Virus record (IMG/VR): IMGVR_UViG_3300032092_000079
Coordinates: 1 to 40,658 of that record
Reading direction: 5' to 3' (one strand)
Origin: a virus
Length of the DNA: 40,658 nucleotides
The translations under genes were made by a program, and so were the position numbers. The notes under the pieces were generated by a model. That model ran no database searches and was not told the origin of the DNA. It was given only the letters and a program-made list of their open reading frames with translations. Position 1 is the first letter of the stretch. Every line of letters starts with the position of its first letter. Positions 24,592-40,658 of this stretch are shown one piece after another.

Positions 24592-24921
24592 TTATTCCTC
24601 CTTGTTTTCTTCGTCAGGGTCAATCCCCAACAGTTTACGAAACTTCTCAACCTCTTCATTTGTTATTCGATTATTATTCCCATTATCTACCTGACCACCG
24701 ACATGAAACCCATCATCAAGGTCATAATCTAACTTAACCATTGACTGTGTAATAACTTCAAGAATGTCCTCAATACTAATGACACCAACTTGACCCTCAT
24801 TATCAGCGGCACTCATTGCCATATCAATATAGTCCACCAAGTTCCACAACGCAACCCGAAGATTAATTGCTGGCGCAAGAGTAACAATACCTTTAATCAT
24901 TTCAGCAGGATTCTCAATCAA
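24592..24921 (-). CDS. Hypothetical protein, 109 residues
   Basis: Acidic protein starting at TTG 24921, which overlaps the WhiB stop (TTGA). Helical first half (NLRVALWNLVDYIDMAMSAA), an Asn/Gly-rich linker (VDNGNNNRIT) and an acidic end (DPDEENKEE). The gene lies between WhiB and ERF genes, but the sequence shows no known motif. The start has no good binding site, so translational coupling to WhiB is likely. Confidence 0.6.
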   Translation of the reverse strand: MIENPAEMIKGIVTLAPAINLRVALWNLVDYIDMAMSAADNEGQVGVISIEDILEVITQSMVKLDYDLDDGFHVGGQVDNGNNNRITNEEVEKFRKLLGIDPDEENKEE

Positions 24922-25232
24922 TTTTTGATACCCCGACCTTTACCGTTACGCCATAAAATGCCACCCCACACGCCATGATTCGGCCTATAAAGTTTTGCAT
25001 ATTCAAAACAGGCTTCAACAACAGGGCAACCAGAACACATTGTTACAGCCTCAACAGCAGTAGGCGTTGGATAAAAATCTTCCTCATCCCCATAGTCAAC
25101 CCAGGGGGAAGGAATCATCTCCAAACAATTAGCACCCAAATCATTCATGTCCTCATGCAGTTCAGAATACAACGCTGCAACTTGTGGATTAGAATACGCA
25201 AACGCAAACAACCTATCATCTTTAGTAGCCAT
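24918..25232 (-). CDS. WhiB-like iron-sulfur transcription regulator
   Basis: 104 residues. The four ligand cysteines of WhiB proteins are present: C36, then C66-x2-C69-x5-C75, followed by the GVWGG turn at 87-91 and a basic tail (RNGKGRG) that in family members contacts DNA. WhiB proteins occur in actinobacteria and their phages and plasmids; they bind a [4Fe-4S] cluster and the principal sigma factor. Phage copies such as TM4 WhiBTM4 can interfere with host WhiB2 and septation. Here it may redirect host RNA polymerase. AAGGTAGG lies upstream of ATG 25232. Confidence 0.93.
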   Translation of the reverse strand: MATKDDRLFAFAYSNPQVAALYSELHEDMNDLGANCLEMIPSPWVDYGDEEDFYPTPTAVEAVTMCSGCPVVEACFEYAKLYRPNHGVWGGILWRNGKGRGIKN

Positions 25233-29915: not shown

Positions 29916-30025
29916 ATTTACCCCCTTGATTATTGTTTACATTCTGATAATGGCGGCCGCGTAATACCATTCGCGTAACCACAACCGTTAGCACGTTCAC
30001 CCGTACTCGCGGCCGCCACACCAAA

Positions 30026-30631
30026 CTACACCCGCTTAGGTGATTGAATAACCACACCAAACACGTCAGGATTACCCTTATCGAAACGCCACGTGCCGCC
30101 ACTACTGCCGCCGCGTGTAGCGTTCCACTTATCGTCACGACGGGCAGCCGTCACCACGCCTTCAATCGGATTGGCAAACTTCACCACGTCGGCCAACAAC
30201 TTCATATTGAACATAACGCCGCCACCTTCATCCGTAGGTTGCCATTCTTGAACCAGCGAATAAGTACGCGGGTATTGGCCGCGCACAGTATCGCCCGACA
30301 TTACTGCCCCAAAACAACTAATGCGAGTAACATTCTCAACAACTTCAATCGTCACGGGCATACCGTTGTCAATATTTTTGTTAGCCGTAGCGAATGAAAC
30401 AATCATAGACATAGGCACAATCACGTTCACACCCGTAACCGTAGTGTCACCCGCGTTAGGCGAAACGGAATAAACAATCCGATACCTATCAGTAACGGTT
30501 GCGATAACACTATCCCCTTCAACCATTACGTTCACACCTTCAAGGACAAAAGTATTGTCCACGTTCTTAGTGACGGGCTGCCACGTGGCCACTGCCCTAA
30601 TCCACTTCATGTCTACTGTAACTACTTCCAT
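30026..30631 (-). CDS. Sliding clamp-like protein (DnaN beta-clamp fold, putative)
   Basis: 201 residues, about half a bacterial clamp subunit. The clearest clue is ATVTDRYRIVYSVSPN (about 44-60), like the ATD-x-YRL strand of beta clamps, followed by IVPMSMIVSFATANKN and LLADVVKFANPIEGV, which match the order of clamp strands and helices. Two domains would need three copies per ring. A phage clamp could hold the host polymerase on phage DNA. A plain hypothetical protein is the alternative. GGGGGAAACATT precedes ATG 30631 and is complementary to the loops of the hairpins at 544 and 22621. Confidence 0.55.
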   Translation of the reverse strand: MEVVTVDMKWIRAVATWQPVTKNVDNTFVLEGVNVMVEGDSVIATVTDRYRIVYSVSPNAGDTTVTGVNVIVPMSMIVSFATANKNIDNGMPVTIEVVENVTRISCFGAVMSGDTVRGQYPRTYSLVQEWQPTDEGGGVMFNMKLLADVVKFANPIEGVVTAARRDDKWNATRGGSSGGTWRFDKGNPDVFGVVIQSPKRV

Positions 30632-30642
30632 AATGTTTCCCC

Positions 30643-30729
30643 CTAACCTAGTTTCGCCGCGCTTATAGACATTCCATAAGCACCATACTCATCACAATAC
30701 ACTTCAACATATTCGTTGTCAAGTACCAT
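30643..30729 (-). CDS. 28-residue peptide
   Basis: ATG 30729 with GGGGGAATAAGA before it, to TAG 30643. Peptide MVLDNEYVEVYCDEYGAYGM and ISAAKLG resembles a single beta hairpin plus helix. Support comes from the strong binding site and its place in a gap; still the weakest of the small genes. Confidence 0.45.
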   Translation of the reverse strand: MVLDNEYVEVYCDEYGAYGMSISAAKLG

Positions 30730-30731
30730 TC

Positions 30732-30926
30732 TTATTCCCCCTTACCCTTCACATATCCCTTACTGATAACGTAACCCATATCGGCCATACGTTCCCTAAA
30801 CATTCGCGCTACTTCCCGCCGCGAATACCCTTCATAGTTGCACCATTCCCGCCACGCCATATGCCCGTCAATCACTATGGCACTAGCGCACAACATACCG
30901 TTGTCTAGTTTCGTCACTTCAATCAT
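30732..30926 (-). CDS. Small hypothetical protein, 64 residues
   Basis: ATG 30926 with AAGGGGTATCTA upstream. Strands LDNGMLCASAIVIDGHMAWR then a helix SRREVARMFRERMADMGYVI and a Lys/Gly-rich end whose codons form the GGGGGAATAAG binding site of the next gene. Looks like a beta-hairpin-helix DNA-binding or adaptor protein; not recognised. Confidence 0.65.
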   Translation of the reverse strand: MIEVTKLDNGMLCASAIVIDGHMAWREWCNYEGYSRREVARMFRERMADMGYVISKGYVKGKGE

Positions 30927-30941
30927 TAGATACCCCTTCCC

Positions 30942-31166
30942 CTAATTATTCTCATTATGAATATCGTCACTACACGGATAGCAATACACTTCAAAACCGT
31001 CACGATTAGTATCGTTGCCGCAACGTTCACACGTCATCACATCACCACCATTCGCGCCACACTTCCCGCAATATTCCCCATACCCTTCACATAACGGGCA
31101 GAATGAATGACAATCCCAATTGCCCTTATGTTTAGGGCATTCGATTACGTTATGTTCACACGTCAT
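30942..31166 (-). CDS. Multi-zinc-ribbon protein, 74 residues
   Basis: Twelve cysteines and several histidines: CEHNVIECPKH, CHSFCPLCEGYGEYCGKCG, MTCERCGN and YCYPCSDD. The middle is a DnaJ-like CPLC-x-G, CGKCG unit, the end a CERC/CYPC ribbon, so two or three metal sites are likely. The richest member of the zinc cluster. ATG 31166 overlaps the previous stop. Confidence 0.8.
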   Translation of the reverse strand: MTCEHNVIECPKHKGNWDCHSFCPLCEGYGEYCGKCGANGGDVMTCERCGNDTNRDGFEVYCYPCSDDIHNENN

Positions 31167-31459
31167 CAGTACCGTTCCCCTTCACGATACTTCACCGTCG
31201 CGGCCAAACAATCGGAATACGACACGTCACCAATAATCATATTCAATTCATCTACCCGCTTATCGTAATGCCATGCTGCATACGCCACATAATCCGCGTA
31301 CCCTTCACGCCCCGCATAATTGGCGGCCGCAACAAAAAATATGTTCCCCGCATTATCGGCCGTGATACTCTCAACAATCACCCCGTCTACTCTTACCATT
31401 CCCCTATCCCCTTCCAAAAATTCGTTGTTCACTTCTAATTGTTCATCAGTAAATTCCAT
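31166..31459 (-). CDS. Hypothetical protein, 97 residues
   Basis: Starts at ATG 31459 with GATAGGGGTAAC upstream. Acidic N-terminus (MEFTDEQLEVNNEFLEGDRG), a strand pair with FFVAAANYAGREG, then a Tyr/Ala-rich helix YADYVAYAAWHYDKRVDEL. No known motif. Its stop overlaps the ATG of the multi-ribbon gene. Confidence 0.65.
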   Translation of the reverse strand: MEFTDEQLEVNNEFLEGDRGMVRVDGVIVESITADNAGNIFFVAAANYAGREGYADYVAYAAWHYDKRVDELNMIIGDVSYSDCLAATVKYREGERY

Positions 31460-31617
31460 TAGTTACCCCTATCTGCCACGTAATCTAATTCGATTAGCAC
31501 CCGCCGCCAGTAGCCGCCGCGAGTATCACCCCTATCCTTCAACAACCTAGCCGCATACTCATACCCGTACTCACGGTATAAGAATGTTGCCCGTAACCGT
31601 TCATCATTCTCAAACAT
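31459..31617 (-). CDS. 52-residue basic protein
   Basis: ATG 31617 to TAA 31459, overlapping neighbours at both ends (TAATG). Helical: LRATFLYREYGYEYAARLLK then DRGDTRGGYWRRVLIELDYV. Many Arg and Tyr; may bind nucleic acid. Ends in DRGN from the junction GATAGGGGTAACTAATG. Confidence 0.7.
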   Translation of the reverse strand: MFENDERLRATFLYREYGYEYAARLLKDRGDTRGGYWRRVLIELDYVADRGN

Positions 31618-31829
31618 TATCTAATCCCCCGTTCGCGCCAGTAGTGACGTGGCGTAATATCTTCCCCCGCCAATTCATACATCTTCTCAATCGTGTAATC
31701 AATCCCGTACCCGTTCGCCGCAATATCGGCCGCCGCATACGTTGCGTGTATCTCATGCCCTAGCCACACGTTCCCATGCCACTTACCAATAACCCATACG
31801 CGGCCACCCGTAAATTCACTATCAGACAT
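31617..31829 (-). CDS. Small hypothetical protein, 70 residues
   Basis: ATG 31829 with GAAGGGGGTAAC upstream. Strand WVIGKWHGNVWLGHEIHATY followed by helix AAADIAANGYGIDYTIEKMY and a basic end HYWRERGIR. No family recognised. The CGGGGGATTAGATAATG at its end is a looser form of the junction cassette. Confidence 0.65.
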   Translation of the reverse strand: MSDSEFTGGRVWVIGKWHGNVWLGHEIHATYAAADIAANGYGIDYTIEKMYELAGEDITPRHYWRERGIR

Positions 31830-32041
31830 TAGTTACCCCCTTCAAGAATAATATCCTTCAACGTTGTTTCACTTACCCATAGTTTGCAAATCGTTCCCGA
31901 ATGTTGTTCAAGATTCACAACACTACGAATAGCCACCGTCTGCCCCGCGAATTGTCCACTAGCAATATCTGCCCGTATGCGCGGCCGTTGCCCGCTAGGC
32001 GCGGCTAGTAATTCCCGCGCCGCTAATTCTGTAATATCCAT
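31829..32041 (-). CDS. Small hypothetical protein, 70 residues
   Basis: Residues 1-30 are helical and basic (LAARELLAAPSGQRPRIRAD), then beta strands VAIRSVVNLEQHSGTICKLW and VSETTLKDIIL. C-terminus LEGGN comes from the junction cassette. ATG 32041 overlaps the stop of the zinc protein before it. Confidence 0.65.
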   Translation of the reverse strand: MDITELAARELLAAPSGQRPRIRADIASGQFAGQTVAIRSVVNLEQHSGTICKLWVSETTLKDIILEGGN

Positions 32042-32259
32042 TACTTACCCCCTTCATTCCATATTGCCCCGCGAAACCGCGCACCCGCGAGAGTAGTTGC
32101 ACACGTGCCACACGGTTGCTTACTAAACGCGGCAACCCCTTCATCTAATTCGATAACACAATCAAGTGTCACCCGATATTTAGCCCATGTACCGTTATCG
32201 TCGGCCGCGCAATCAAAACATAGCCACGTCGTACCAATACGCTTATCAATCGTTACCAT
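32041..32259 (-). CDS. Zinc-ribbon protein, 72 residues
   Basis: CFDC near residues 14-17 and PCGTC near 50-54 on either side of a beta sheet (WAKYRVTLDCVIELDEGVAA). Ends in NEGGK from the junction cassette. GAAGGGGGTAAC precedes ATG 32259. A typical member of the small-ribbon series. Confidence 0.72.
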   Translation of the reverse strand: MVTIDKRIGTTWLCFDCAADDNGTWAKYRVTLDCVIELDEGVAAFSKQPCGTCATTLAGARFRGAIWNEGGK

Positions 32260-32429
32260 TAGTTACCCCCTTCCGTTTCAATCCACGTTTCAACAGTACG
32301 CGGGAACGTCACAACCCCGTTAGCCCCGCAAAAATAGCACATATTGTTAGGCACGTGCCACCCGTCAGACATTCCCCCTAAGTGAGAACAATCGCCGCAT
32401 AAAAATACCCGCATAGTTTCGACGGCCAT
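32259..32429 (-). CDS. 56-residue zinc-ribbon protein
   Basis: ATG 32429 to TAA 32259, both in TAATG overlaps. LCGDCSHLGGMSDGWHVP then NMCYFCGANGVVTFPRT: a CGDC/CYFC pair plus His residues. Ends in ETEGGN from the cassette. Short enough to be missed, but framed by two standard junctions. Confidence 0.72.
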   Translation of the reverse strand: MAVETMRVFLCGDCSHLGGMSDGWHVPNNMCYFCGANGVVTFPRTVETWIETEGGN

Positions 32430-32614
32430 TAGTTACCCCCTTCAATCGTGGCCGTGATACGTCGCGCCATAGTAATCTGCCGCGTATCCACATTCTCCAA
32501 TATCCATAGGTTGCCGCTACGTGTCATGCCTACAACAACGTAAGTGTTATCCCAACCGTTGCGTAGCCAATCACCTAGTTTCGTTTCCGTAGTAATCCCA
32601 ATAACCGTTTCCAT
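32429..32614 (-). CDS. Small beta-barrel protein, copy 1 of a pair
   Basis: 61 residues. Aligns with the next upstream gene: ETKLGDWLRNGWDNTYVVVG versus ETKIGDVVTNHYGETGTVVG, then G-x-W-I-x-N and a shared RRIT/HKIT strand. About five strands, like SH3-type or Sm-type small barrels. Ends in IEGGN. GAAGGGGGTAAC precedes ATG 32614. Function unknown; tandem duplication is clear. Confidence 0.7.
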   Translation of the reverse strand: METVIGITTETKLGDWLRNGWDNTYVVVGMTRSGNLWILENVDTRQITMARRITATIEGGN

Positions 32615-32808
32615 TAGTTACCCCCTTCAATCGGTTGCCCAACAATAGTCACCGTGTAACGTGTAATTTTGTGGCAGAAGGTTTCGCGGCCGCTACTCGC
32701 GTTGCGAACAATCCACCATGTACCCTTCTCAGATTCCCCGACAACAGTACCCGTTTCCCCATAGTGATTAGTAACTACATCACCAATTTTCGTTTCAATC
32801 GTAATCAT
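32614..32808 (-). CDS. Small beta-barrel protein, copy 2 of a pair
   Basis: 64 residues; paralogue of the gene at 32429-32614, with KGTWWIVRNASSGRETFCHK where copy 1 has SGNLWILENVDTRQITMARR. Ends in IEGGN from the junction. TTAGGGGGGAATA precedes ATG 32808. It is the first gene after a 283-base gene-free gap, so transcription may restart there. Confidence 0.7.
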   Translation of the reverse strand: MITIETKIGDVVTNHYGETGTVVGESEKGTWWIVRNASSGRETFCHKITRYTVTIVGQPIEGGN

Positions 32809-33091
32809 TATTCCCCCCTAAGAGAATGTTATTTATGTTAGATATTCTTACACACATTATTCAATTATGCAACCCCGCCGCCACAAAACATTACCCGTGT
32901 CATGTCCACCCCGTAGATATATGTCATATCTTATCACCCGCTACCTAACTACACCCCCCCGAAAACGCCCATTCTCACGTCATGCACCCGTCTGCAACAA
33001 TCGGCCGCCCCGTAAACACTTGACACAATCCCCAAAAATACAACCGTATCAATATAGTTAGATAATAATGTTATATGTAGTTATTACTGTA
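32809..33091. other. Gene-free segment inside the leftward small-gene series
   Basis: No open frame worth calling on either strand. It contains an AT-rich stretch near 33040-33095, the word ACACTTGACA at 33016-33025 (also found in the promoters at 34569 and 34687, but here without a matching -10 at 16-19 bases), and a leftward TTGAAT/TAACAT pair with an 18-base gap upstream of the barrel genes. It could hold an internal promoter or an origin; neither is shown. Confidence 0.35.
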
Positions 33092-33253
33092 TTACCCGTA
33101 TAACGGGGATAGGCCAACAATCACAACCGTAAGCACTAGCCACAACCCCGCCACAATCACAACCCCCCCGACAATCAGATACGCCACATACCCCCGCAAC
33201 GTCAACGGCAAACGTTCACCCTTCACAACGACATAGCCAAAATCCCCCCGCAT
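33092..33253 (-). CDS. 53-residue membrane protein
   Basis: ATG 33253 overlaps the previous stop (the text reads GGAATGTAATGCG) with GGGGGGG upstream, to TAA 33092. After a polar start with VVVKGERLPLTLRGY, one long membrane helix of Val/Ile/Leu/Gly runs from about 23 to 48. Function unknown; too short for most gene callers. Confidence 0.62.
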   Translation of the reverse strand: MRGDFGYVVVKGERLPLTLRGYVAYLIVGGVVIVAGLWLVLTVVIVGLSPLYG

Positions 33254-33399
33254 TACATTCCCCCCCGACGCTTAGCAAACACGACATTAGCCGACAACTT
33301 AGCCGCCCTAGCCGCCCCCCGTTTCAACGTTCTCACACGACGGCCATACTCTCGCAACCGATACAATTCTGCCCGTTGCGGCGATAATCTCTTAGCCAT
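33253..33399 (-). CDS. 48-residue highly basic protein
   Basis: ATG 33399 to TAA 33253. Composition is Arg/Lys/Ala-rich: AELYRLREYGRRVRTLKRGA and AARAAKLSANVVFAKRRGG, about one third basic residues in an amphipathic helix. It may bind DNA or RNA. Ends in RRGGM, encoded by the G-run that serves as binding site for the membrane protein gene. Confidence 0.62.
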   Translation of the reverse strand: MAKRLSPQRAELYRLREYGRRVRTLKRGAARAAKLSANVVFAKRRGGM

Positions 33400-33466
33400 A
33401 ACTAAACCCCTTCAATTGTTGATATCGGTATTGGCCGCCACCCGATTGAATGGCGGCCGTCGAACA

Positions 33467-33709
33467 TCAGTACCCGCGTACTGCCCATAACATAGCCCGC
33501 CCCGCGTTCCACAATTCCCGCTTACTGCCGCCTACGCCGTCAAACGTTTTTGAGATTGTTCCCGCCGCCGTGTAAATTGCCCAAACCCGAATGCTCCACG
33601 CCGTGAACGTGTCCACGCGTTCGCCGTGTGTAATCGTTCCGTTCTCACGTAGCGCGGCCGTTAGCCGTTCGGCCATAGCCGCTAGTTGTTGTTCCGTGAT
33701 ACGTTCCAT
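33467..33709 (-). CDS. Hypothetical protein, 80 residues
   Basis: ATG 33709 with GAGAAGGGGTAAGGGC before it is preferred; the open frame continues upstream to 33856, but that part is Arg-rich out-of-register sequence overlapping another gene. N-terminal helix (ITEQQLAAMAERLTAALREN), then AWSIRVWAIYTAAGTISKTF and a basic C-terminal helix. Not recognised. Confidence 0.6.
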   Translation of the reverse strand: MERITEQQLAAMAERLTAALRENGTITHGERVDTFTAWSIRVWAIYTAAGTISKTFDGVGGSKRELWNAGRAMLWAVRGY

Positions 33710-33812
33710 GCCCTTACCCCTTCTCCATGTACGCGGCCACAGTAGCCGCGTATCGCCCCGCCGCGTGTATCGAACACGCCTAGCCCCAATCGGTAGCGGG
33801 TGGCCGTCTGCC

Positions 33813-34094
33813 CTATTGTTCTGATTGTAGTTGAGTAATCTTGTCGGCCAATTCATGCGCGAGACGTTCCGCGCGTTCTAGCGACGTTCCACGCCCCGTA
33901 AAATCATCAATCTCGCGGCGTATCTCATGCAAAATCTCGCGCCATTCGATTACGGCCGCACTGTTCGCGTTGCCCGCGAAACACGTCGGGCACTGCCATT
34001 CGCCCCCGTTCATGTCCCCGTTGTCGTACCATTCGGGTATCCATGTGGCCGCGCCACATTCGGCACATTCTGTAGGTTGTGTATCCGTGTCCAT
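33813..34094 (-). CDS. Zinc-ribbon protein with C-terminal helix, 93 residues
   Basis: ECAECGAATW near 8-17 and WQCPTCFAGN near 33-42 form a two-pair ribbon; residues 50-93 are one long charged helix (EWREILHEIRREIDDFTGRG) that could dimerise. GAAGGGGGAATC precedes ATG 34094. Second gene after the leftward promoter, so probably expressed very early. Confidence 0.72.
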   Translation of the reverse strand: MDTDTQPTECAECGAATWIPEWYDNGDMNGGEWQCPTCFAGNANSAAVIEWREILHEIRREIDDFTGRGTSLERAERLAHELADKITQLQSEQ

Positions 34095-34117
34095 GATTCC
34101 CCCTTCTAGGGATTGGT

Positions 34118-34145
34118 GGCCGCCGCCTATCGTAGCGCGGCGGCC
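34118..34145. other. Perfect 9-bp GC hairpin between the first two leftward genes
   Basis: GGCCGCCGC (34118-34126) and GCGGCGGCC (34137-34145) with loop CTATCGTAGC. There is no T-run on either side, so this is more likely an mRNA stabiliser or processing site than a terminator. Confidence 0.5.
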
Positions 34146-34151
34146 GTTCGA

Positions 34152-34445
34152 TTAGTTAGCGGCCATCTCGCGACATTCGCGGCCGTTGCGTTCGCGTTCC
34201 GTGTGAAAATCAGATTCACAGATTGGGCATTCGTAGTATTCGGCACGTGCCATTCGTTCGGCCGCCATTCGCATATAGCCGCGTGCATAATCGGCCAATT
34301 CGCCAGATATGCGGCGCGTTGTTTCGCTATCTTGATTATCTCGCAATTCTTCCGCGAACTGTTCAAGCGTTTCCGCGATACCGTGCGCTAGTATCTCGGC
34401 CACCGTTGCGGGTATCTCAATCACTACCCGTTCGACGTTCTCCAT
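34152..34445 (-). CDS. First leftward gene: helical protein with C-terminal zinc motif
   Basis: 97 residues. Helical body (VVIEIPATVAEILAHGIAET, LEQFAEELRDNQDSETTRRI) and at the end YYECPICESDFHTERERNG, a C-x2-C...H type metal site. It is the promoter-proximal gene of the leftward unit; AGAAGGGGAAC precedes ATG 34445. Could be an early host-interaction or anti-host factor, by position only. Confidence 0.7.
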   Translation of the reverse strand: MENVERVVIEIPATVAEILAHGIAETLEQFAEELRDNQDSETTRRISGELADYARGYMRMAAERMARAEYYECPICESDFHTERERNGRECREMAAN

Positions 34446-34484
34446 GTCGTTCCCCTTCTGGTTGTTGTGATGTGATGATATTTA

Positions 34485-34524
34485 GTTATAACAACAACAT
34501 AGCACGGATACGCGGCGGCCGCAA
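34485..34524 (-). promoter_or_regulatory. Leftward promoter candidate with operator-like palindrome
   Basis: On the minus strand TTGCGG (34524-34519) and TATGTT (34501-34496) are 17 bases apart. The -35 matches consensus at three of six positions and the -10 at four, so it is moderate. The palindrome GTTATAAC (34485-34492), also the core of operators A and B, lies where transcription would begin. Confidence 0.4.
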
Positions 34525-34544
34525 CCCGATTAGGCCATATTTTG

Positions 34545-34562
34545 ATAACGATATTGTTATAA
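34545..34562. promoter_or_regulatory. Operator A
   Basis: ATAACGATATTGTTATAA contains the inverted repeat ATAAC/GTTAT. These 18 bases are the exact reverse complement of 34661-34678 in operator B. It ends eight bases before the -35 of promoter A. Confidence 0.6.
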
Positions 34563-34570
34563 AAAAACAC

Positions 34571-34599
34571 TTGACAATTAGCGGCCGATAGTGTAATAT
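34571..34599 (+). promoter_or_regulatory. Rightward promoter A
   Basis: TTGACA (34571-34576, perfect -35), 17-base gap, TAATAT (34594-34599, four of six). It shares CACTTGA-AAT around the -35 and CACGCGGC after the -10 with promoter B, so the two are duplicates. Confidence 0.65.
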
Positions 34600-34660
34600 C
34601 ACGCGGCGCGGCAACGTCGCGGCATCATACACGACAACGGGCAGAATATCAAGCACATAA

Positions 34661-34680
34661 TTATAACAATATCGTTATAA
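34661..34680. promoter_or_regulatory. Operator B
   Basis: TTATAACAATATCGTTATAA is an inverted repeat with perfect 7-base arms (TTATAAC/GTTATAA) and a 6-base centre. The same site, inverted, is operator A 116 bases away. It lies directly before the -35 of promoter B, a position used by activators or by looping repressors. Confidence 0.7.
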
Positions 34681-34688
34681 TTCGACAC

Positions 34689-34717
34689 TTGATAATCACA
34701 CGGAAAACCGATATAAT
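34689..34717 (+). promoter_or_regulatory. Rightward promoter B
   Basis: TTGATA (34689-34694, five of six), 17-base gap, TATAAT (34712-34717, perfect). The best promoter in the genome by eye. Transcription would start near 34724 and give a leader of about 245 bases before the terminase gene, passing through the inverted repeat, direct repeats and LexA-like boxes. Confidence 0.75.
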
Positions 34718-34775
34718 CACGCGGCCGCGCTATTGTCTATAATGTCTAGTAACCCGATAGACATAGTGAACAATC

Positions 34776-34811
34776 TCATAGGATTCACATAGCCAATTCA
34801 TAGGATTCACA
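34776..34811 (+). repeat. Direct repeat pair TCATAGGATTCACA
   Basis: Two exact 14-base copies at 34776-34789 and 34798-34811 start 22 bases apart, about two helical turns, so a protein binding both would lie on one face of the DNA. They lie between promoter B and the LexA-like boxes. No match known to me. Confidence 0.7.
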
Positions 34812-34834
34812 CAGCAAACGCCAAGCGGCCGCTA

Positions 34835-34850
34835 TCGAACATATGTACGA
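34835..34850. promoter_or_regulatory. LexA-like (SOS) box 1
   Basis: TCGAAC-ATAT-GTACGA matches the mycobacterial/Bacillus-type SOS box TCGAAC-N4-GTTCGA at 11 of 12 arm positions. Confidence 0.55.
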
Positions 34851-34867
34851 AACATCACGGATTGTAA

Positions 34868-34883
34868 TCGAACAAACGTTCGA
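34868..34883. promoter_or_regulatory. LexA-like (SOS) box 2
   Basis: TCGAAC-AAAC-GTTCGA is a perfect match to the actinobacterial SOS box. It starts 33 bases (three helical turns) after box 1. A -10-like TGTAAT (34863-34868) abuts it, so bound LexA could block transcription into the terminase gene. LexA belongs to the host; none is encoded here. Confidence 0.65.
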
Positions 34884-34969
34884 ACGGGGGTGTGGCACTA
34901 TCGCATATTTTTTTTGTTGTGTTTGGGGTTGTAGCCTACTGTATGATTGTGGTTGGAGGTGTGTGTCTA

Positions 34970-35464
34970 GTGGATGATGTTGACCGCTTGTTGTTGCGTG
35001 AGTATGGGCGTAGGTCGCCGCAGGAACTTGAGGTGTTGACGGGTGTGCCTGCGTTGGAGGTTGCTCAGCGTTTGGAACGGGTTTTGGGTGAGCGTGATTT
35101 TTTGGGTGAGGATGCGCGGATTGGTGTTTTGTTGCAACGGTTGGATGGGATGGTTGCTGAGGTTGAGTCGCGTATGTCTGGTATTTCTGACCGTAATTTG
35201 GGTTCGGTGGTTAATGCTGCGGCTGGGGCGATTGGTCGTCAGTTGAAGGTGTTGGCTGATTTGCGTGATAGGTCTGTGGTTGACCTTGAGCGGGTGCAGT
35301 CGGTTTATGCGAGGGAACTGGTGCGTATTGTGGAGTTGTCTTTTGAGAGGCTTCTTGGCCGTTTGGAAGAAAGGTATCCCGATATTGAGGCTGAGGATTT
35401 GCGTGTCGAGTTTGAGGGTTTGATTGGCGTGGTGGCGCGTGAGGTTGATGATGGGGTTGTGTGA
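34970..35464 (+). CDS. Terminase small subunit (putative)
   Basis: 164 residues from GTG 34970, chosen because GGAGG lies ten bases upstream; the open frame reaches back to GTG 34892, but that part (LSHIFFVVFGVVAYCMIVVG) overlaps the control region and has no usable binding site. N-terminal RRSPQELEVLTGVPALEVAQ looks like the DNA-binding HTH of small terminases; the rest is a long helical region (EVESRMSGISDRNLGSVVNA and on) suited to ring oligomerisation. Directly upstream of the large subunit, with stop and start overlapping. Confidence 0.7.
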   Translation: MDDVDRLLLREYGRRSPQELEVLTGVPALEVAQRLERVLGERDFLGEDARIGVLLQRLDGMVAEVESRMSGISDRNLGSVVNAAAGAIGRQLKVLADLRDRSVVDLERVQSVYARELVRIVELSFERLLGRLEERYPDIEAEDLRVEFEGLIGVVAREVDDGVV

Positions 35465-37020
35465 TGTTTGATGGGATTGCGGTTCGTGCGTTGGAGGAGA
35501 TGCGGTTAAAGTCGCAGGCTTTGGTGTATCAGTCTGACCCTGAGGCGTGGATGGCTGATGTGTTGAATATTCATTTGTGGTCGAAGCAGTCGGAGATTGC
35601 GGAGGCTTTTGTGAATAATCGTCGCGTGGCTGTGAAGTCTGCGAATGGTTGTGGGAAGTCGGCGTTGGCGGGTGCGTTGATTTCGTGGTGGTGTTCTGTG
35701 TTTCCTGTGGATGAGGCGTTGGCTATTGTGTCTGCACCTACGTTGTCGCAGATTGAGAAAGTTATTTTTGCTTATTTAAAAAACAATTTTGCGAGTGCTA
35801 AAACGTTGGGTTCGCCGTTGCGTGGGGAGATTAGTGAGGAGTTGACGTGGAAGGTGTTGAATCCTGTGACGGGGAAGAAAGATTTTTTGGCTTTTGGGAA
35901 GCGGCCTGCGGATAAGGATATTGTTAGTTCGTTTCAGGGTACTCGTAAACTTCGGACTGGTGTTTTTATTGATGAGGCGGGTGGTGTGCCACGGGAGTTG
36001 TTTACTGCTGCGGAGGCGGTGACGACTGGTGCGGAGTCACGGTTGTTGGCGATTGGTAACCCTGACCACCGTGGTACGGAGTTTCATAATATTTTTACGC
36101 GACCTGAAATGGCGGATGAGTTTTGGTTGGGTACTATTTCTGCGTTTGATTTGCCTACGTTTACAGGTGAGGTGGTGTATGCCGACCAGGTGAAGCAGGA
36201 ACGGTTTTTGGCTGAGTTGACTTCGGTGGAGTGGGTTGACCATAAACGTCGTGTGTGGGGTGAGGGTGATGCTCGTTGGATGAGTAAGGTGATGGGTGAT
36301 TTTCCTGGGGAAACGGATAATACTTTTTTTGGGCAGTCTGCGATTGATACTGGTATTGATACTATTATTGTGGAGGATGCTGCGGTTAAACCAATTTTGG
36401 GTGTGGATGTGGCCCGTTTTGGTGATGATGAGTCTGTGGTTTATGTGAACCGCGCAGGGCATGTGCGGTTGTGTGATTCGTGGGGGAAGGTGGATACGGT
36501 TGTGTCTGCCCGTAGGATTCACCAGTTGGCTATGTCGGTGGATGCGTCTGAGGTGCGGGTGGATGCGTCGGGTATTGGTGGGGCTGTGTTTGACATGTTG
36601 GAATCATTGGATGAGTTTGATGATAAACGGTATGTGTTGATTGGGATTGATGGTGCAGCGAGGTCGCCTGACCCTGCACAGTGGGCGAACAGTCGTGCCT
36701 ATAACCATGACTCTTTGCGGAAGCAGTTGCTGGATGGCAAGTTAGATATTGACTTTGAGGATAACGAGTTGCGTGACCAGTTGTTGATGGTGACGTATCG
36801 GTTTAATAATCGTGGTGCTGTGCAGATTACGCCGAAAGATGAGTTGCGTGGTGTGATGGGTGGGTCGCCTGACCGTTTGGATGCGTTGATTTATGCGACG
36901 ACTGATTTGAATTATTTGTTTACTAAGGATGTTAATGCGGTTAATGCTGGGGATAGGGTCATGTTTGACCCTGCTGACATACTGCAGATGAGCATTGATG
37001 ATGTGGGTATGCCGTGGTAA
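35464..37020 (+). CDS. Terminase large subunit
   Basis: 518 residues. ATPase: Walker A VKSANGCGKSA near 58-68 and Walker B GVFIDEAG near 166-173. Nuclease (RNase H fold): Asp in LGVDVARFGDD near 315, Asp in RVDASGIGG near 367, Asp in SPDRLDALIYA near 473. The enzyme pumps DNA into the prohead and cuts the concatemer. ATG 35464 overlaps the small-subunit stop; GTG 35461 is an alternative. Followed by a promoter element for the portal gene. Confidence 0.95.
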   Translation: MFDGIAVRALEEMRLKSQALVYQSDPEAWMADVLNIHLWSKQSEIAEAFVNNRRVAVKSANGCGKSALAGALISWWCSVFPVDEALAIVSAPTLSQIEKVIFAYLKNNFASAKTLGSPLRGEISEELTWKVLNPVTGKKDFLAFGKRPADKDIVSSFQGTRKLRTGVFIDEAGGVPRELFTAAEAVTTGAESRLLAIGNPDHRGTEFHNIFTRPEMADEFWLGTISAFDLPTFTGEVVYADQVKQERFLAELTSVEWVDHKRRVWGEGDARWMSKVMGDFPGETDNTFFGQSAIDTGIDTIIVEDAAVKPILGVDVARFGDDESVVYVNRAGHVRLCDSWGKVDTVVSARRIHQLAMSVDASEVRVDASGIGGAVFDMLESLDEFDDKRYVLIGIDGAARSPDPAQWANSRAYNHDSLRKQLLDGKLDIDFEDNELRDQLLMVTYRFNNRGAVQITPKDELRGVMGGSPDRLDALIYATTDLNYLFTKDVNAVNAGDRVMFDPADILQMSIDDVGMPW

Positions 37021-37025
37021 AGGCA

Positions 37026-37034
37026 TGATAAAGT
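37026..37034 (+). promoter_or_regulatory. Extended -10 element TGATAAAGT before the portal gene
   Basis: TGA-TAAAGT (37026-37034) ends seven bases before ATG 37042; the only G-rich word between (TAGG) is too close to the ATG for ribosome binding. Suggests a leaderless portal transcript. Confidence 0.55.
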
Positions 37035-37041
37035 AGTAGGT

Positions 37042-38535
37042 ATGGCTAAAGAAACTGCTAAAGAAATTGCTCAGACGGAACAGATGGCTGAATTGCAGGG
37101 TGTTCTGACGGAGATTAGTGACAAGTATTCTACTGTTGAGTTTGAATTGCAGGAAAGGCTGGTTGAACTTGACCGTGTGATGGGTGGCGAGAATTGGATT
37201 CCCATTTTGTCGTATGGTGATGAAGGCCCTTCGATTGAACAGTTAGTTAATCGTGCGAAACAGATTCGTGTGGCGGCTACGCTGAATCCGCATGTAAAGC
37301 GTGGCGCAAAGTTGCGTTCGTCATATGTGTGGTCTGACCAGATTGATTATTCTGGTGTGCCTGGGATGGGTGAGCAGCCTGGTCGTGGGCAGGCGAATGT
37401 GGGTGCGCGTGTTGATGACCCGATTAATCAGCGGTATGTGTTTAGTGCGTTGGCGCATGAGGAACGCGAAATGTCGCTTTACACTGATGGTGGTTTTTTT
37501 CTTGTGGGTGATGACCGTACCCGCCAATTGCGACCCATTTCGTTGAATCAGATTAGTGGGCTTTATACGAATGATGATGACCCTTCTGAGGTGTGGGCTT
37601 ATCGTCGTTTGTGGTACACGGATGGTGGGGTTACACCGAACGTGGAATGGATTTTTACTGACTTGTTTAAAGACAAGCAGACTGAGGCTATTATTTATAA
37701 TGGTGTTCGGGAAACGGTTAATCGTAATAAGACCATGATTGATGGTTGGGTGAACACGCAACCTGGTTGGGCTTTGGGTTTCCCTGATGCTGGTTGTATT
37801 GTGGAGTGGGCAAAAATTTATTCCGAGTTCATCAAGTCGGGTAAAGTTATGACGGATGCTATGGCTCGTATTTGGGCTACCGCTAAAGCGCAGTCTTCTG
37901 CTGGTGCAACTCAGATTGCGGCGAAGATTGGTGGCGCAACTGGTTACGGTAAAGTTGCGGTTGGTAATGAACTTGCACCGTTGGCTACCGCTGGTAAGGC
38001 TTACGATTTTGATGCGGGTCGTGCGCTGATTGCGATTGTTGCGACAGGTATTGAGGTGTCGGTTGTGCATTTGACTTCTGACCCTGGCGCTTCTGGTTCG
38101 TCTTATGCTTCGGCCGCAACGTTGGATTTGCCGACACGCTTGGCTGTGGAGGCTCGTCGTCGTTGGCATGAACAATATGAGGAACGTGTGTTGCGTTGGT
38201 TGGGTGCGCGTAATCCTCGCGCTAAATTCCCGCCGCTCATTGATGGTGCAGAGTTGTATCGTAAAACGCAGTCGGTTGTTTTGAAGTGGCAGACGGGTCT
38301 TTACACGCCTGAGCAGATTAAGAATGAGTTGCAGTTAATTGTGGGCGACCCTATGCCTTCTGAAATTCCTGATGGTATTCTTGTTCCGAATAATGAATAT
38401 AGTGTTGGTCGTAACGACATTGACCCGATTATGAACATTAATCCTACGGTTGGGTCACCAGACCAGGGTCAATCTAATGGCACTGGTTCGTTTGACGGCT
38501 TGGGTATGGATTTACGGAACGATACCATTCAGTAA
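37042..38535 (+). CDS. Portal protein
   Basis: 497 residues, in the fixed position between large terminase and protease. Contains ALAHEEREMSLYTDGGFFLV, VWAYRRLWYTDGG, and a long helical segment MARIWATAKAQSSAGATQIA followed by YASAATLDLPTRLAVEARRR, all typical of actinophage portals. Twelve copies would form the DNA entry ring. N-terminal 45 residues are a charged helix. The ATG has no Shine-Dalgarno but sits seven bases after an extended -10. Confidence 0.88.
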   Translation: MAKETAKEIAQTEQMAELQGVLTEISDKYSTVEFELQERLVELDRVMGGENWIPILSYGDEGPSIEQLVNRAKQIRVAATLNPHVKRGAKLRSSYVWSDQIDYSGVPGMGEQPGRGQANVGARVDDPINQRYVFSALAHEEREMSLYTDGGFFLVGDDRTRQLRPISLNQISGLYTNDDDPSEVWAYRRLWYTDGGVTPNVEWIFTDLFKDKQTEAIIYNGVRETVNRNKTMIDGWVNTQPGWALGFPDAGCIVEWAKIYSEFIKSGKVMTDAMARIWATAKAQSSAGATQIAAKIGGATGYGKVAVGNELAPLATAGKAYDFDAGRALIAIVATGIEVSVVHLTSDPGASGSSYASAATLDLPTRLAVEARRRWHEQYEERVLRWLGARNPRAKFPPLIDGAELYRKTQSVVLKWQTGLYTPEQIKNELQLIVGDPMPSEIPDGILVPNNEYSVGRNDIDPIMNINPTVGSPDQGQSNGTGSFDGLGMDLRNDTIQ

Positions 38536-38540
38536 TATTG

Positions 38541-38549
38541 TGTTATTAT
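38541..38549 (+). promoter_or_regulatory. Extended -10 element TGTTATTAT before the protease gene
   Basis: TGT-TATTAT (38541-38549) ends six bases before ATG 38556. No Shine-Dalgarno between. Same layout as the portal and the other leaderless candidates. Confidence 0.55.
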
Positions 38550-38555
38550 TAGTTG

Positions 38556-39455
38556 ATGAAACTTTTATCCGAATCGTCTAATAGCACCCTGACAAAAAAT
38601 GGCAAGCGCTGGAAAGCGACGCTTGCTGTTCCTGGGCAGGGTTCTTCAGGTTTTTATTCTGAAGAAGTGCTAAAAGAATTTGGGCCGCAGGCTCTTGCTC
38701 CTGGCGCTAAAGCGTTCATTGACCACGATTCGACTCGTTCGCCAAAAGATATGATTGGTGTTTATCCTGACGGCGCATGGTGGGATGACGAAACGGGCAG
38801 CCTTGTTGGTGAGTTGGAAGTTTTCCCTCACTGGTCTGACTTTGTTGAAGCGGTTGGCCCTCACGCTGGTTTGTCTATTTATATGATGGGCGAAACAGAT
38901 GCTGATGGTAATGTGACCACACTTATTCCCGACCAAATGAATGGTGTTGACTTGGTTTCATACCCTGGTCTTGCTGGTTCAGGGTTGGTTGAAAAACTGT
39001 ACGAGTCTGCGAAAGCAAAACTCGCTACTGAGGATTCTCACATGGATGTTGAGGATACCGAAAATACGGAAGGAATGGATATGGATAGGGAAGAACTCCT
39101 TACCATCCTAGAAGGATTCAAAGAAGAAATTATCGCTGCGGTAATGGAAGCAATGATGCCTGCTATGGAAGATGTTTCTGTCGAAGAAGAAGCCGCAGAC
39201 GTGGCCGACATGTCGGAAGTTGCCGAGGCCGCTATTCAGGCTGGTATCCCCGCTGAACTTCGTGCAGAAATTTATGAGTCCGCAAAGACTATGACGGGTG
39301 CTGCTGCACTTGCCCTGGTTGAGGCTCGTAAGGGAACGGTTGACGCAATTCGCAAAGCCGTAACCGAAAGCGTAAAGCAGGATTCGCCTGCTGGTCGCGT
39401 TGTTGAGGCTGGAACTGCTGGCTTCAATCTTACCGATATTGCAAAGGTTAAGTAA
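38556..39455 (+). CDS. Capsid maturation protease fused to scaffold
   Basis: 299 residues from ATG 38556; TTG 38553 just before it is in frame but less likely. The N-terminal 150 residues form a prohead serine protease: H57 in AFIDHDS and S107 in HAGLSIYMMG are the probable catalytic pair, as in the S14/S78-type phage proteases. From about 165 the chain is very acidic and helical (MDREELLTILEGFKEEIIAA, then VEEEAADVADMSEVAEAAIQ), which is the scaffold that shapes the procapsid and is digested later. Overlaps the next gene by TAATG. Confidence 0.88.
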   Translation: MKLLSESSNSTLTKNGKRWKATLAVPGQGSSGFYSEEVLKEFGPQALAPGAKAFIDHDSTRSPKDMIGVYPDGAWWDDETGSLVGELEVFPHWSDFVEAVGPHAGLSIYMMGETDADGNVTTLIPDQMNGVDLVSYPGLAGSGLVEKLYESAKAKLATEDSHMDVEDTENTEGMDMDREELLTILEGFKEEIIAAVMEAMMPAMEDVSVEEEAADVADMSEVAEAAIQAGIPAELRAEIYESAKTMTGAAALALVEARKGTVDAIRKAVTESVKQDSPAGRVVEAGTAGFNLTDIAKVK

Positions 39456-39832
39456 TGGCTACTAACGAAATTTACCGTGACGGCTTTTCGCTGTCATACA
39501 AAGTTAACTCTGCTGTAGAGTCAGGAATGTTTGTTACTTTCGGCGCAACTGCTGGCACAACTGGCGGTGCTGCTACGGGTATTGTTGGTGTTGCAGAAAC
39601 TGACGCTGAACTTGGCGCAGACGGCAACTACTATGCCACGCTTCGTTCGATTGGTGTTTTCACTGGAACGACCTCTTCGGCAACCGCGCCAGGTACTCCC
39701 ATGTACCTTGCTTCGGGAGCAACATACGGAACGGCATTGACCACTACCGTCGGCTCTAACATCTTTGTTGGATACGCTATCAACACAAAGGGCGCTACCG
39801 CTGGTGACGCTTTTGTCCGAGTCAACAACTAA
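39455..39832 (+). CDS. Capsid decoration protein, DUF2190-like
   Basis: 125 residues, Gly/Ala/Thr-rich beta structure: GMFVTFGATAGTTGGAATGI, VGVAETDAELGADGNYYATL and RSIGVFTGTTSSATAPGTPM. The VGVAE-DAE-G...RS-GVF pattern is that of DUF2190 proteins, which trimerise on the capsid surface and strengthen it. ATG 39455 overlaps the protease stop. Placed directly before the capsid gene, as usual. Confidence 0.82.
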   Translation: MATNEIYRDGFSLSYKVNSAVESGMFVTFGATAGTTGGAATGIVGVAETDAELGADGNYYATLRSIGVFTGTTSSATAPGTPMYLASGATYGTALTTTVGSNIFVGYAINTKGATAGDAFVRVNN

Positions 39833-39841
39833 GGAATGATG

Positions 39842-40658
39842 ATGACTGACCGTAAATCTCTTATTGAAAACGCGATTGTTGACATTGACCGTAAGGCCAG
39901 TGACCGTCAGCGCGAAGCAGGGAAACTGTACCTTGCTGCCCGTTCGGGTGACCAGAAGGCTAAGCACCAACTGGTTGAAGGTATTTCCACTTCGGACATT
40001 CCTTCGCTTCTTGCACCTGCTATCAACGTTGAGTTCCTTGCGAACTACGCTGACCAGCCTGTTGTGTGGAACGAAATTGCTGAAACCGTTATTGACGCAC
40101 CTCGCTTTGGCGTGGTTGAGTTCGGTGGGTTCGACTTTGATGTTGACGCACTGAAGGGTGTTCACGACGGTGACACGTATGTTGGCGCTGGACTTCCTGG
40201 TGTTGGCGAACTTGGCGAGTACCCTGCTCTTGGTTTCACGACTGAGCAGTTGGATGCCGACCTTCGTAAGAACGGTGTTCGCCTCCGCATCTCATGGGAA
40301 GCCATTATGAACAGCGGAAACGTTGATATTATTGGTCGCGCAACCCAGGCGTTCGCACGTTACGCTGCCGAGCAGGAAGACATTGCGCTTGCTAAGCAGT
40401 TCGTTAGCACCGCTGGTGTCATCAACGCCTCGTTCGTTGAGGCTAACGACGGAACTGACCCGAACCCTGCACTGAGCCTGGAATCGCTTGAGGCTGTTCT
40501 TGCTCAGGCTGCACGTATCAACGTTGGTTCTGGCCGTCACGTAAACGCTCGTTCGTACCGCCTGGTTACCACTTCGGCTCTCGCGCAAACCGCTCGTCGT
40601 ATTCTTTCGACGACTGAGGTTCGCCGCACCGAAGGTTCGGATGTTCTCATCCAGTCGC
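39842..40658 (+). CDS. Major capsid protein, N-terminal part (runs off the end and continues at base 1)
   Basis: ATG occurs three times in a row (39836, 39839, 39842); the third has AAGGA at a proper six-base distance and is preferred. The N-terminus MTDRKSLIENAIVDIDRKAS is a helical arm, followed by QREAGKLYLAARSGDQ and TSDIPSLLAPAINVEFLANY. The frame continues without a break into base 1 of the window (position 40514 corresponds to base 1) and stops at 471. Roughly 380 residues in all. Confidence 0.88.
   Translation, partial: MTDRKSLIENAIVDIDRKASDRQREAGKLYLAARSGDQKAKHQLVEGISTSDIPSLLAPAINVEFLANYADQPVVWNEIAETVIDAPRFGVVEFGGFDFDVDALKGVHDGDTYVGAGLPGVGELGEYPALGFTTEQLDADLRKNGVRLRISWEAIMNSGNVDIIGRATQAFARYAAEQEDIALAKQFVSTAGVINASFVEANDGTDPNPALSLESLEAVLAQAARINVGSGRHVNARSYRLVTTSALAQTARRILSTTEVRRTEGSDVLIQS
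40514..40658. repeat. Terminal overlap, right copy
   Basis: Second copy of bases 1-145. The single difference, G at 40532 versus T at 19, changes a codon of the capsid gene from GGC (Gly) here to TGC (Cys) in the left copy. Confidence 0.95.

Follow-up and report, generated by a model that had tools for sequence, protein, structure and literature searches.

Two LexA-type boxes stand in tandem in this phage, at the head of the late operon (the packaging and structural genes) and within its leader. Box 1 (positions 34835 to 34850) reads TCGAAC-ATAT-GTACGA and departs by 1 mismatch from the 16-bp palindrome TCGAAC-N4-GTTCGA of the actinobacterial-type LexA operator; box 2 (34868 to 34883) reads TCGAAC-AAAC-GTTCGA and is perfect. 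Neither they nor the spacer between them (34851 to 34867) are assigned to a strand, and the boxes start 33 bp, or 3.1 helical turns, apart. An earlier sequence-only reading had described the pair with these coordinates, match qualities and distance, all of which are confirmed here. The first gene of the operon (34970 to 35464, + strand) has no family match and is named the probable small terminase subunit gene from its position. Its longest open reading frame begins at 34892, and a ribosome site, GGAGG, lies at 34955; judged by the relatives, the GTG at 34970 is more likely to be the start than the GTG at 34892. Counted from this probable start, the boxes lie at -135 (box 1) and -102 (box 2), within the ~200 bp from a gene start taken as the range of a LexA operator. 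There follow, all on the + strand, the genes for the large terminase subunit (35461 to 37020; phrog_2, E 5.6e-31), the portal protein (37042 to 38535; phrog_10963, E 6.9e-75), and the head maturation protease (38553 to 39455; phrog_15531, E 4.6e-29).

The two ends of the window, i.e., of the whole 40,658-nucleotide (40.7-kb) stretch analyzed, share a 145-bp overlap containing 1 mismatch, which makes the window a complete genome, either circular or circularly permuted. Beginning at the boxes, the rightward genes take in the terminase, portal, and protease genes and then, across the record ends, the tail and lysis genes, up to 17104. The leftward (early) genes, which extend from 34445 to 17563, include those for a primase-polymerase, an SSB, an exonuclease, an Erf-like protein, a helicase, a WhiB protein, and a methyltransferase; the GC skew changes sign at both borders between the two sets. 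The WhiB-type regulator gene (24918 to 25232, - strand), a mark of actinophages, and the terminase and portal relatives, many of which are found in Clavibacter, Arthrobacter, and Microbacterium phages, indicate an actinobacterial host. Elsewhere among the leftward genes, a short protein (30026 to 30631, - strand) weakly resembles both a RusA-like resolvase and a polymerase processivity factor; the Pfam beta-clamp domain DNA_pol3_beta_2, detected among the 39 scanned proteins, perhaps belongs to it.

Two promoter-like sites on the + strand point toward the boxes, TTGACA-N17-TAATAT (34571 to 34599) and TTGATA-N17-TATAAT (34689 to 34717), ending ~120 to 240 bp upstream of them, and no recognizable promoter overlaps the boxes. 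The sequence-only reading had placed the boxes between the main rightward promoters and the small terminase gene; the position ahead of the terminase holds, and the promoters amount only to consensus matches. A second palindromic operator family, likewise unassigned to a strand, is represented by one copy upstream of each -35 element: TGATAACGATATTGTTATAA (copy A, 34543 to 34562) before that at 34571 and TTATAACAATATCGTTATAA (copy B, 34661 to 34680) before that at 34689. This family recurs across the wider terminase family; it is also present at L008 (883 to 902), and similar GTTAYCNNATCGTTAT sites occur in L051, L084, and L088. Its position beside promoters points to an additional regulator belonging to the phage itself, so that the statement that the phage has no repressor means only that none is recognized. 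Directly after the boxes comes an element, GTGGCACTATCGCATATTTTTTTT (34892 to 34915, + strand), that is near-invariant in the window and its two closest relatives and is possibly a late-promoter core or a packaging element; its core, TGGCACTATCGCATATTT, has no match in any other viral contig. The element GTGGCACTATCGCATATTTTTTT and, adjoining the ribosome site, a TATGAT are kept in the alignment of these three phages; the TATGAT (34942 to 34947, + strand), ~60 bp downstream of the boxes, might serve as the -10 of a late promoter lacking a recognizable -35.

Rarity and conservation of the boxes

A scan of the 40,658-base genome with TCGAACNNNNGTTCGA returned these two boxes as the only matches with 0 to 1 mismatch, an absence of further boxes that is meaningful since the genome is complete. 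Equally good matches scattered over the genome, which the sequence-only reading had named as evidence against its proposal, are thus not present. All remaining matches have 3 mismatches, and at up to 3 mismatches the 13 matches compare with 14 expected from shuffles; hence it is the two good sites that carry the evidence. About 0.002 perfect sites are expected per genome, and 150 third-order Markov simulations yielded a mean of 0.047 sites with at most 1 mismatch per simulation, no perfect site, and no pair within 60 bp. The genome scan, the expected number of perfect sites, these simulations, and the reversed control motif described below led us to reject a chance origin of the pair.

The details of the boxes are those of known LexA operators. 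The Bacillus-type LexA box has a central tetramer RNRY, with which both centers here (ATAT and AAAC) agree. By their sequence, the boxes match published actinobacterial LexA boxes. Additionally, the hexamer TTCGAA is avoided about ten-fold in the genome (1 seen versus 10 expected), its sole copy starting at 34879, inside box 2, and in the compared parts of the two closest relatives it occurs at the boxes only; its avoidance elsewhere and retention at the box are hard to explain without a function. TTCGAA is one of several 6-base palindromes, with TGCGCA, ACGCGT, TGGCCA, and TCGCGA, that have one copy each in the genome versus 8 to 10 expected, a scarcity that suggests pressure from host restriction.

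Only two viral contigs, G001 and G002, encode a terminase more than 62% identical to that of the window, both at 81% for the large subunit. The boxes number three in G001 and two in G002 and occupy the same place as in the window, with box 1 conserved in both relatives; the loss of boxes in close relatives, which would have spoken against the earlier proposal, was seen in neither. In the three-way alignment, 26/32 box columns (81%) and 13/17 spacer columns (76%) are invariant, against 41/270 columns (15%) in positions 34501 to 34770, most of the intergenic DNA upstream having diverged. The central tetramers differ among the three phages (ATAT, AAAC, and AAAT), and most half-site positions are constant.

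Farther afield, we screened 78 further terminase relatives, 32 to 62% identical and some ending short upstream, most of which carry no box, and obtained 5 perfect boxes versus 0 for the reversed control, with boxes of at most 1 mismatch numbering 11 for both. Perfect boxes are present in L051, L075 (which shares the L038 contig), L081, and L088. Most terminase relatives at 45 to 62% identity lack a box, which makes the boxes a trait of particular lineages. In a search of 2.9 million viral contigs, tandem perfect boxes were recovered from 32, and the reversed control motif from 0. Terminase or portal genes follow the boxes in at least three further lineages: in the unrelated phages L028 (12914 to 12981) and L035 (6897 to 7036) the next recognized gene is that of the large terminase; in L030 (553 to 600), likewise unrelated, the portal gene lies three genes downstream, an arrangement shared by L019, L037, and L042; and in L038 the boxes precede a gene in the small-terminase position by 1.9 kb. 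Other tandem boxes are near genes for helicases (L031, L032, and L043), methyltransferases (L021, L034, and L036), and a ribonucleotide reductase (L045), as well as among unnamed genes of Gordonia phages. A separate case is the 67-kb contig IMGVR_UViG_3300009084_000003 (G003), which has eight clustered LexA-type boxes, each with at most 1 mismatch (L014, 7079 to 7333), and encodes a 79-residue protein (L126, 3122 to 3361, - strand) consisting of the LexA DNA-binding domain only, like gp6 of the Bacillus phage GIL01.

The isolated phages gave no DNA match to positions 30000 to 40658 of the window, and their best terminase relatives are ~54 to 55% identical; in the Clavibacter phages CN1A and CMP1 no box with 0 to 1 mismatch was found near the terminase. 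A terminase profile recovered no prophage relatives from bacterial genomes, and one narrow pattern, too strict to mean much, recovered no tandem boxes from them. A partial literature search found no paper on LexA boxes in actinophages.

Host LexA and the competing readings

Judged from sequence and conservation, the LexA-type operator pair is genuine and conserved, and its location is unusual. By analogy with GIL01 and Streptomyces venezuelae, the most likely explanation is that host LexA holds the late operon of the phage; we consider it probable that the boxes are operators at which this SOS repressor restrains late transcription from within the leader. The rarity of the sites, their retention in the closest relatives, and their location before the late operon support this explanation, as does the presence of tandem boxes before late genes in other phage lineages. 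LexA binding, its repressive effect, and the mode of that effect are the parts that we infer. In an undamaged host, LexA dimers would sit side by side on both boxes and hold late transcription at a low level, whether by obstructing a late promoter adjoining the boxes or by stopping polymerase arriving from the two upstream rightward promoters. RecA, activated by host damage or by the DNA replication of the phage itself, would then induce LexA self-cleavage and release the late operon. Against this explanation, the boxes overlap no recognizable promoter, so that an activating rather than a repressing role is also possible, and the boxes are missing from most of the 45 to 62% terminase relatives, whose matches with at most 1 mismatch are no commoner than those of the control. 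On balance, repression by host LexA is likely, and a dormant state is possible.

Repression by host LexA could take two forms, which share its probability and fit the data about equally well. In the first, which we regard as less likely than not, the phage is temperate and non-integrating, persisting as a circular or linear element while LexA and a phage partner silence the late genes until damage releases them. In favor of this form, among 27 records including the window, G001, and G002, some of them fragments, none has a tyrosine integrase and one, distinct from these three, has a serine recombinase. No integrase or resolvase was found in the window, and no HTH_3 repressor or LexA is detectable there, which agrees with the sequence-only description of a phage lacking a recognizable integrase or repressor. 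Further, GIL01 provides a precedent for host LexA serving as the repressor of a phage (PMC6182141). Weighing against such dormancy, no partition or episome-maintenance family is present among the 39 window proteins scanned, and the leftward early promoter has no box, whereas that of GIL01 has LexA sites. With its early operon left on, the phage could scarcely stay dormant without a second repressor acting there, perhaps one binding the TTATAAC operator; the missing early-side boxes thus make it somewhat less likely that LexA alone keeps the phage fully dormant.

The same restriction of the boxes to the late side favors the second form, in which a strictly lytic phage uses its own replication intermediates to trigger LexA cleavage, delaying the late genes until enough genomes have accumulated. 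The SSB, Erf-like annealing protein, exonuclease, helicase, and primase of the early operon would expose single-stranded DNA, and the lack of detected lysogeny genes is in keeping with a lytic cycle. We regard this form as slightly less likely than the first; against it, LexA is unnecessary for a delay and most relatives with 45 to 62% terminase identity do without the boxes.

Two further readings exclude host LexA. A phage-encoded activator or repressor sharing the sequence preference of LexA might bind the boxes, much as GIL01 gp6 descends from LexA; the boxes precede the conserved TATGAT, a position suited to an activator, and the box-rich G003 does encode a LexA DNA-binding domain. This is improbable, given that the GIL01 gp6 site is unlike a LexA box (PMC6182141) and that neither a LexA-type nor an HTH_3 domain, nor any match to PF01726 (the gp6-like LexA homologue), was detected in the window or its two closest relatives, so that a regulator of these types was rejected as the ligand. 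Least probable is a packaging (pac/cos) or terminase-binding site or a leader RNA element: packaging sites commonly lie directly before the small terminase gene, as the boxes do, but the motif matches the LexA box down to its details, unrelated phages have tandem boxes near non-packaging genes, and leader RNA structure is no greater than in shuffles (z -0.6), on which ground an RNA element was rejected.

Implications and comparison with known systems

Returning to repression by host LexA, the near-perfect LexA sites before packaging and structural genes, together with their retention in the closest relatives, suggest that particle building by the virus is timed by the damage alarm of its host. 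More speculatively, and with considerable doubt, we propose that several unrelated integrase-less lineages of tailed actinophages have ceded control of the late operon to host LexA, giving a non-integrating, SOS-released dormancy. Lytic and temperate calls rest mostly on whether integrase and repressor genes are present, and such dormancy would escape these standard markers of lysogeny. If the late operon is gated by host LexA in phages devoid of both, many “lytic” actinophages may conceal a state released by damage or follow a lytic cycle timed by it, for which tandem LexA boxes would offer a simple DNA marker. The principle of GIL01, in which host LexA represses structural genes, would then reach from a tectivirus to tailed phages.

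Phage genes under LexA control are known in phage 186 (Tum), CTXphi (RstA), and similar cases. These share with the present phage a host LexA box in a phage promoter region but differ in that LexA there controls an anti-repressor or replication gene, not a packaging and structural operon. The LexA of Streptomyces venezuelae binds tCGAAC-N4-GNNCGa, at boxes placed -14 to -199 from start codons with one at +91, and its listed targets include a phage tail-fiber gene induced 526-fold by mitomycin C (Table 1 in PMC9380542). The 16-bp operator and the range of distances from start codons are the same as here; the targets there are chromosomal, whereas the boxes described here belong to a complete free phage genome. 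In GIL01, LexA acts with gp7 at tandem boxes to repress the late promoter P3, which gp6 activates (PMC6182141). The present phage differs from this tectivirus in being a tailed actinophage with a terminase, in having no detected gp6-like LexA-domain protein, in lacking any further site of 0 to 1 mismatch that could correspond to the boxed early promoter of GIL01, and in that its boxes are not seen to overlap a promoter, as those of GIL01 do. The two nevertheless have in common tandem LexA boxes before the late operon, the lack of a recognized dedicated phage repressor, and the use of host LexA as repressor, which is established for GIL01 and, by analogy, likely here.
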